NCBI GenBank assembly: GCA_023248535.1
Contig: JAHFEJ010000020.1
Location: 1-43,845 of the forward strand
Origin: Nitrospinales bacterium
GTDB taxonomy: Bacteria; Nitrospinota_A; UBA7883; JACRGQ01
Direction of reading: 5' to 3'
Length of the DNA stretch: 43,845 nt
Position numbers and translations under genes: made by a program
In this document: piece after piece, positions 10,997 through 17,623 of the stretch
How the letters are laid out: each line of letters starts with the position of its first letter
Numbering within the stretch: the stretch's first letter is position 1
Notes under the pieces: model-generated
The model's database searches: none
What the model was told of the DNA's origin: nothing
Seen by the model: the letters and a program-made list of their open reading frames with translations, nothing else

Positions 10997-11073
10997 GACC
11001 TCGTAGCTCAGTTGGATAGAGCATCGGATTCCTAATCCGGGGGCCGTGGGTTCGAATCCCGCCGAGGTCACCA
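10997..11073 (+). tRNA. tRNA-Arg (anticodon CCU), CCA encoded
   Basis: A full cloverleaf is visible: acceptor GACCTCG/CGAGGTC, D-arm GCTCAGTTGGATAGAGC, anticodon arm TCGGA-TTCCTAA-TCCGG with anticodon CCT (decodes AGG), T-arm GTGGGTTCGAATCCCGC, discriminator A and genomic CCA at 11071-11073. It reads rightward and has no other tRNA beside it. The 3' half (from the T-arm through CCA) is repeated twice downstream, at 11256-11272 and 11454-11469. Confidence 0.97.
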
Positions 11074-11272
11074 CTAAAGCCTTATTCCCCTCAACCTCAA
11101 AAATCACTCTCAGGGAAAATTTGCCGAATGGGCGGGATTCGAAGCCGAGTACGCGGCCCGACCGATGAGGGAGGGCAAACAGGCAGGACGCCTGTTTAGC
11201 GGGCGAGTGGGGGCCGATGGAGGGGCAACGTGATGTTGCCCCGAACAGTGGCCGTTCCCGCCGAGGTCACCA
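11074..11272 (+). repeat. tRNA-Arg tail repeat, unit 1
   Basis: After a 57-base spacer (11074-11130) comes GGCGGGATTCGAA (11131-11143), the exact reverse complement of the tRNA T-arm strand at 11051-11063. The unit then carries GCGGCCCGACCGATG, hairpin AAACAGGC-AGGAC-GCCTGTTT (11177-11197), a G-rich linker, hairpin GGGGCAAC-GTGAT-GTTGCCCC (11222-11242), and ends with a copy of the tRNA 3' end TCCCGCCGAGGTCACCA (11256-11272). The tail copy lies 199 bases after the corresponding bases of the tRNA. No protein-like frame is present. The unit reads in the same direction as the tRNA and could be part of its transcript. Confidence 0.8.
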
Positions 11273-11469
11273 TTTAATGCTTAGCTATATCCGACTACAC
11301 CGTCTTGTGGTTGGTCATGTTATTGGGTAGCGGGATTCGAAAGTGAGCCTGCGGCGCGAGCGGTGCACAGCGCAGTCCGCCATGGATGGCGGACTAACAG
11401 GCGAATCGCGCCTCCTCTCGCGGCGGCGTGATGCCGCCGCGAGAGGAGGCATCTCCCGCCGAGGTCACC
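11273..11469 (+). repeat. tRNA-Arg tail repeat, unit 2
   Basis: The layout is the same as unit 1: a 57-base spacer (11273-11329, unrelated to the first spacer), the anti-T-arm segment GCGGGATTCGAA (11330-11341), GCGGCGCGAGCGGTG, hairpin GTCCGCC-ATGGAT-GGCGGAC (11375-11394), an 18 bp perfect stem around the loop GTGAT (11410-11450), and the tRNA 3' end copy TCCCGCCGAGGTCACC (11454-11469). The bases after this copy (GCTAAAGCCT) match those after the tRNA itself (ACTAAAGCCT). The stems differ from unit 1 while layout, loop and ends are kept. Confidence 0.8.
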
Positions 11470-11480
11470 GCTAAAGCCTG

Positions 11481-17183: not shown

Positions 17184-17557
17184 GCGAAGGCGGACAGACG
17201 GCCGCCGCGCCCGGCAACGGGGGCGGAGGAAAGTCCGGACACCATAGAGCAGGGCACTCCTTAACGGGGAGCGGGAGTAATCCCAGGGAAAGTGCCACAG
17301 AAAAGATACCGCCCCTTCATTGGGGTAAGGGTGAAATGGCGAGGTAAGAGCTCACCGGGCCGGCGGCGACGCCGGCCGCATGGAAAACCCTGCCCGGTGC
17401 AAGGCCAAATAGGGGGGCGTTTCTCCGCAAGGAGAAAGGAAGTTGCTCGCTTCCCGCCTCCGGGTTGGCTGCTTGATCCCGCCGGCAACGGCGGGGCTTA
17501 GATAAATGGCCGTCGCCCCTCACGGGGTACAGAATCCGGCTTATAGTCCGCCTTCGC
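17184..17557 (+). ncRNA. rnpB: RNase P RNA, bacterial class A
   Basis: This is the catalytic RNA that trims the 5' leader of pre-tRNAs. Conserved elements appear in order: P1 strand GCGAAGGCGGAC, GAGGAAAGTCCGGACACC (J3/4-P4), AGGGAAAGTGCCACAGAAA, GATACCGCC, GGTAAGGGTGAAATGGCG and GGTAAGAGCTCACCG, the GGCTTAGATAAATGG region, and CAGAATCCGGCTTATAGTCC at the 3' side, closing with GTCCGCCTTCGC, which pairs with the 5' end. A pyrimidine run (TTTCTT) follows as a likely terminator. It lies just after the zinc ribbon gene in the same direction. Confidence 0.95.
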
Positions 17558-17623
17558 TTTCTTAAACTCTCACATGGCAGATGCACAATTCGGGAAGCGC
17601 GGAAGGATTTTTCGATCCGCGCC

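Follow-up and report, generated by a model that had tools for sequence, protein, structure and literature searches.

A two-unit tRNA-linked repeat array behind a tRNA-Arg gene of a Nitrospinales bacterium, from a family of structured units with ends matched to their own tRNA or tmRNA gene

We identified, directly behind a tRNA-Arg gene of a Nitrospinales bacterium, an array of two tandem units that meets the anatomy of the tRNA-linked repeats (TLRs) of Escherichia coli in its place, in the copy of the tRNA 3′ end that forms the tail of each unit, and in its tandem number. The array lies in the stretch of DNA that was analyzed as a whole (43,845 nucleotides, referred to from here on as the window), which is one contig (C47) of a 2.87-Mb genome in 132 contigs, and it belongs to a family of units whose ends are fitted to the gene in front of them. 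The reading that we prefer, to which we give a probability of roughly 0.65, is that of a TLR array carried on read-through RNA and cut free during tRNA processing; transcription, folding, and processing are all inferred.

In agreement with the initial annotation, which was made from the sequence alone, the end of the tRNA gene is found three times at nearly constant spacing: the 16-mer TCCCGCCGAGGTCACC starts at 11057, 11256, and 11454, at distances of 199 and 198 nt, and has no further occurrence in the 43.8-kb window. When an 800-nt region was subjected to 2000 mononucleotide shuffles, a 16-mer was seen even twice in only 1 of the 2000. The copied part comprises the last 16–17 nt of tRNA-Arg(CCT), and the copies are identical to it over 17 and 16 nt. 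They had been taken to run through CCA, which is correct for the second copy and has to be amended for the third, which reads CACCG and lacks the final A. The same order of elements in both units, also claimed at the outset, is borne out by a second repeat family (GCGGGATTCGAA...GAG...GCGGC) at 11132 and 11330, and the two spacers (11074–11130 and 11273–11329) indeed have the same length of 57 nt and unrelated sequences. Likewise, the 9 nt that follow the tRNA, CTAAAGCCT at 11074, recur past the third copy at 11471. What had been missed is that each unit opens with GGCGGGATTCGAA, a reverse-complement copy of the T-loop and the 3′ strand of the T-stem of the tRNA, which pairs with the copied 3′ end. 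The coordinates of these features are collected in Table 1. Elsewhere in the window, at 17186–17559 (+), lies an RNase P RNA of bacterial class A (312 bits).

Table 1. Features of the tRNA-Arg locus and its two repeat units (positions are those of the window)
Feature	Position	Strand	Evidence or remark
tRNA-Arg (anticodon CCT), anchor gene, CCA encoded	10997..11073	+	ARAGORN; Rfam tRNA 69.8 bits
Spacer 1, 57 nt	11074..11130	+	no terminator-like hairpin (most family spacers carry one)
Anti-T arm of unit 1, GGCGGGATTCGAA	11131..11143	+	5′ half of closing stem P1; inverted repeat I2
Unit 1	11132..11270	+	match to covariance model R1, 128.5 bits (R1 training sequence)
Hairpin P3, unit 1	11156..11176	+	GCCC/GGGC
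Hairpin P4, unit 1	11177..11197	+	AAACAGGC-AGGAC-GCCTGTTT, GGA in loop
Hairpin P6, unit 1	11222..11242	+	GGGGCAAC-GTGAT-GTTGCCCC, within P5
Tail copy 1 of tRNA 3′ end, TCCCGCCGAGGTCACCA	11256..11272	+	first bases form 3′ half of P1
Spacer 2, 57 nt	11273..11329	+	no sequence kinship with spacer 1
Anti-T arm of unit 2, GCGGGATTCGAA	11330..11341	+	inverted repeat I3
Unit 2	11330..11468	+	R1 match, 124.3 bits (R1 training sequence)
Hairpin P4, unit 2	11374..11395	+	AGTCCGCC-ATGGAT-GGCGGACT
Long perfect hairpin, 18 bp	11410..11450	+	at P5/P6 position of unit 2; inverted repeat I1
Tail copy 2, TCCCGCCGAGGTCACC	11454..11470	+	final base G, not A
CTAAAGCCT	11471..11479	+	identical to 9 nt after tRNA

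A BLAST search with the region revealed similar units downstream of further tRNAs, both in the same genome and in relatives, and the covariance model R1 was built from an alignment of 22 units. R1 has matches in all 11 examined genomes of the window's family and in none of 13 other Nitrospinota genomes (class and phylum); it also matches a distant genome of another phylum (G090), the three units of which all stand behind tRNA genes. By a fuller scoring, the window's genome holds 22 units and 44 tRNA genes, with 21 units behind 18 of the 44 and 1 behind the tmRNA gene, i.e. 22/22 behind tRNA or tmRNA; a 23rd listed match, which lies on the reverse strand and overlaps unit 2, was left out of the 22. 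By an arithmetic estimate, a site picked at random has a chance of ∼0.001 of lying on the correct strand no more than 150 nt downstream of such a gene. Of the 115 units in all genomes together, 93 have a tRNA gene upstream on the same strand, of many kinds and typically 45–65 nt away; 5 come after a tmRNA, 1 comes after a weak tRNA-like remnant, and another 7 are found at contig ends. For several of the remaining 9, a tRNA remnant, an inserted gene, or a position within a tRNA accounts for the exception. The tmRNA-linked loci come from six genomes of the family (L187, L188, L190, L192, L231, and L240), and in four of them the match to the tmRNA end was read. The window locus carries two units and other loci carry one or two, and the number per genome ranges from 3 to 22. 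Across relatives, the tRNA-Arg(CCT) locus has two units in the window, a remnant in G002, and none in G001. The idea of a tRNA-anchored family, put forward in the initial annotation, is thus upheld by units found with the covariance model behind tRNA 3′ ends in other genomes and by their covarying structure.

How well the ends of a unit fit its own gene was scored for 81 first units, each with its own tRNA and with tRNAs shuffled among units (500 shuffles). The anti-T arm fits the own tRNA with 7.72/9, compared with 5.99 after shuffling (maximum of the 500, 6.30); the corresponding values are 7.43/9 and 5.98 for the tail and 6.17/7 and 4.82 for its acceptor part, and no shuffle came near the observed values. 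Tails are partly diverged in many of the 81 units, and in several units the anti-T arm reaches into the acceptor strand. Units linked to tmRNA carry the complement of the tmRNA T-arm and a copy of the tmRNA 3′ end, and in G090, where the tRNAs have no encoded CCA, the tail copies likewise have none. Further, the anti-T arm holds GAA, complementary to the TTC of the T-loop, and the tail copy is without TTC. We conclude that the core is closed on its 5′ side by the reverse-complement T-arm, and on its 3′ side by a copy of the 3′ end, of the neighboring gene.

Within these ends, the units share a conserved core of five helices, in which P1 closes P2 (with P3 and P4) and P5/P6. Of its 34 pairs, 31 display double-sided changes (28 by RNAalifold with the 22 aligned units). 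In an alignment of 121 distinct matches, standard pairs fill 90.4% of the pair cells, compared with 65.3% after shuffling and 36–43% in slid versions of the fold, and double-sided changes number 970, compared with 290 after shuffling; because this alignment was fitted to R1, the RNAalifold result with 22 units is the fairer one to start from. Among mismatches in P3–P6, G·A far exceeds C·U (161 to 11), which makes the fold specific to the tRNA strand, and on the same ground a purely DNA-cruciform reading is ruled out. G-U pairs are rare in P3–P6 (33/2566), compared with 44/862 (5.1%) in the tRNA stems of the same genomes. In alignment A3, the frequency of G-U pairs in P3–P6 is a quarter of that in tRNA stems, even though compensatory changes are very numerous there. 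Templated correction of the hairpin arms or a role at the DNA level is a possible cause of this rarity. The loop of P4 contains GGA in 81 of 114 cases, compared with only 29 of 104 for P6, and may be a protein-binding site of the CsrA type, which is a hypothesis only, without binding data. A CsrA sponge as the general function is unconvincing, because neither the P6 loops nor the total GGA count (4.8 per unit, barely above the 4.2 of shuffled units) gives support.

Orthologous units behind the same tRNA in species of the genus are 91% identical in the core, 88% in the anti-T arm, and 68% in the tail copy, and the identity around them is 0.48 in the spacer and 0.49 downstream. At larger distance, the units most alike are often those behind different tRNAs of one genome (G006, G009, and G010). 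Because orthologous cores are conserved and units within a genome are often the most alike, sequence comparison supports both inheritance under constraint and copying to new tRNA genes. It shows that selection maintains units at their tRNA loci and that copies have spread to further tRNA and tmRNA genes, where the ends were re-matched to the new gene. No single unit is essential, because units come and go between related species.

Some loci have a different arrangement. At L189:7749–7888 (−) (G010:C104), a unit lies inside a tRNA-Ala(GGC) gene, in the order tRNA-Ala up to C56 of the T-loop, anti-T arm and core, and the remaining tRNA from the tail copy; it could represent the outcome of a deletion or the initial stage left by an insertion. 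A gene for a 520-aa AAA ATPase (Pfam AAA_15/AAA_21) lies between two 98% identical tRNA-Ala units at L065:1199–3429 (G002:C164), and a glyoxalase-fold gene lies between two units behind tRNA-Ser at L195:1854–3233 (G008:C6). At L196:3016–8746 (G010:C98), two units, one of them matched to tRNA-Arg(TCT), adjoin a DUF1016/YhcG nuclease gene, and the neighboring genes resemble a type I restriction system (by eye only). The order at L193:5092–6457 (G006:C5) runs from a phage integrase gene through a weak tRNA-like match (31.8 bits) to a unit; it seems that an integrative element entered a unit-bearing tRNA. Finally, decayed or altered units at L051 and L055 share a similar insertion after the anti-T arm (CAAAAAACCGGACAGCCGC...), which may represent a further family of small repeats that inserts into units.

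Integrases commonly use tRNA 3′ ends, and past integrase insertions at this 3′ end could have left the tandem copies as att-site duplications of a phage or island. A direct repeat of the tRNA 3′ end is what the array shares with such duplications, and elsewhere in the family an integrase gene adjoins the unit behind the tRNA-like remnant in G006, and defense-type genes adjoin units in G010 and lie between two units in G002. However, the neighbors of the array in the window are ftsH and a histidine kinase/response regulator gene, and no integrase or island gene was found near it in the window, so the initial annotation was right to set the array apart from an ordinary att duplication. Further, a conserved, covarying core of 110 nt lies between the copies and recurs behind many different tRNAs, and the inverted copy of the T-arm that the units add is not made by att duplication. 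This explanation is already contradicted, and we leave it hardly any weight. It is also conceivable, and in our judgment quite improbable, that the locus is a folding switch in which the real T-arm is bound by the anti-T arm, and the 5′ acceptor strand of the tRNA by the tail copy, the unit thereby controlling maturation of the upstream tRNA or removing read-through precursors. This exchange of strands is the predicted lowest-energy fold of the tRNA with unit 1, and the anti-T GAA finds its TTC in the T-loop and not in the tail copy. Against it, the tRNA is made and folded first, and fold prediction ignores the order of transcription; a terminator often separates the tRNA from the unit; and many units carry a diverged acceptor part in their tail, so that the exchange is not kept everywhere.

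The main rival, which we consider unlikely on balance and yet the most serious of the alternatives, is that the units are selfish, non-autonomous mobile elements that insert at tRNA 3′ ends and duplicate the end so that the tRNA is spared, without any gain to the host; conservation would then come only from a trans-acting enzyme that needs the fold. The likeness of units behind different tRNAs of one genome fits such an element, as do the variable copy number, the differences in presence between related species, and the occurrence in every genome of just one family. The tail and the trailer form a duplication like that of a target site, the unit within the tRNA-Ala gene of G010 stands after C56, and the scarcity of G-U pairs would suit a fold at the DNA level. 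On the other hand, orthologous cores remain 91% identical while spacers and flanks are at about 48%, so the units have been constrained after their arrival, and no enzyme has been linked to them; one exact unit pattern, sought in viral contigs, was not found there. In addition, TLRs of E. coli are transcribed and processed (PMC8144298).

With regard to the preferred reading, that of a small RNA from read-through tRNA transcripts, the evidence on transcription is indirect. In 62 first units with a spacer of 35–80 nt, a terminator-like hairpin stands between tRNA and unit in 35, compared with 3 of 62 shuffled spacers; by the same test, the window's own spacer has none. The co-transcription with the tRNA that the initial annotation put forward is unproven; because so many spacers hold a terminator, the units are more likely, and indeed probably, transcribed by read-through, although there are no expression data. 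In the proposed mechanism, transcription would continue past the tRNA and its terminator into the unit, the tail copy would keep the anti-T arm from pairing with the real tRNA, and the unit would be freed during tRNA processing as a short RNA of ∼140–200 nt, by analogy with the processing measured for the E. coli repeats RrA, RrB, and RrF. Such a small RNA is our best guess at the function and is unproven. Several points speak against it: terminators precede many units and transcript data are lacking, an ordinary RNA does not need the rarity of G-U pairs in P3–P6, the Rfam RtT model does not match the window units, and units are gained and lost between related species.

TLRs have been known in E. 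coli since 1978, and the K-12 strain has 22 units at 10 loci (Egan and Landy 1978; Rudd 1999; as described in PMC8144298). By definition they follow a tRNA or rRNA gene and repeat 18–19 nt of its end, and they occur as 1–5 units per locus, the tyrT repeat measuring 178 bp and RrB 150 bp; an early claim that the tyrT RNA acts in the stringent response was withdrawn, and TLRs were without a known function before the study of RrA, RrB, and RrF (PMC8144298). These three lie behind E. coli 5S rRNA between two terminators, are transcribed by read-through, and are processed to ∼115 and 173 nt; binding of CsrA and Hfq was measured for them only, and their stem-loops contain GGA (PMC8144298). The 175-bp rtT repeat of Salmonella varies in number (PMC2658671), and Pasteurellaceae have Northern-positive RtT relatives near tRNA genes (PMC4986893). 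The initial annotation mentioned similar elements behind tRNA genes of other Proteobacteria, often misannotated as short proteins, and this is correct, as the E. coli repeats and the “protamine-like protein” tpr annotated inside RttR show. The function of TLRs has remained open since 1978, and the puzzle, known mainly from E. coli, proves to be more widespread. More than 100 units in a phylum far from E. coli, for which a strong covariation model, orthologous loci in several species, and a simple rule are now at hand, make a role as RNA testable, and the same data set makes testable how a unit gains ends fitted to its own tRNA. They also call for caution in annotation pipelines for tRNAs, att sites, and small proteins.

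In kind, the array is therefore not new: its anatomy is that of the E. coli TLR/RtT, whereas its core differs and is not matched by the Rfam RtT model. Both stand directly behind a stable-RNA gene on the same strand with a tail copied from the 3′ end of that gene, the window tails (17 and 16 nt) being slightly shorter than those of E. coli. The E. coli units have another core sequence, belong to another phylum, and include 5S rRNA loci, whereas the window family includes tmRNA loci and 18 of the 44 tRNAs of one genome. With RrA, RrB, and RrF, the window family shares the order of terminator then unit, at many of its loci, and GGA in stem-loops. The sbcD RNA of Burkholderiales (RF01757) has a similar order of hairpins; it scores 28.4 bits on unit 2 only, below its gathering score of 40, and gave no match in 289 relatives, where the controls gave none either. 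At E values up to 10, an Rfam scan of the window returned only the tRNA and chance or sub-threshold matches, and miRNA-type matches on the perfect hairpin at 11410–11450 were rejected.

The closest likeness is to RtT RNA (RF00391; the 178-bp repeats of E. coli tyrT-tyrV), which likewise is closed by a stem between anti-T arm and tail copy, encloses a helix bearing two hairpins, and stands behind a tRNA. RtT is reported to contain a tandem GA motif (PMC7657543), the window family has its excess of G·A, and some of its units begin with GGATGAGAAGC like RtT (L167). The Rfam RtT model finds no match on the window units, either at its gathering score (45 bits) or at E values up to 10, and R1 in turn scores 12 bits or less on RtT; over 50 kb of E. 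coli, unfiltered, the two tyrT units nevertheless rank first, if weakly (12.0 and 10.5 bits; E 0.07 and 0.19). In 289 relatives, RF00391 has one match (G019), and an RtT-like sequence pattern gave mostly chance matches in 385 genomes, with G019 confirmed. In the distant genome G291 (L224), two tandem RtT-like units lie behind tRNA-Ser, with a perfect terminator-like hairpin before each. In the window's own class, though in another family, the RtT model does hit a unit that follows tRNA-Ser (37.5 bits, E 1e-5). That RtT and the window family form one superfamily is likely but not proved. More tentatively, and at somewhat less than even odds, we propose that TLR-type units in several phyla are one ancient superfamily built by one rule, whereby a core RNA lies between an inverted and a direct copy of the 3′ end of a tRNA, tmRNA, or, in E. 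coli, 5S rRNA gene; an unknown copying process would move them between such genes and rewrite both ends for each new one.
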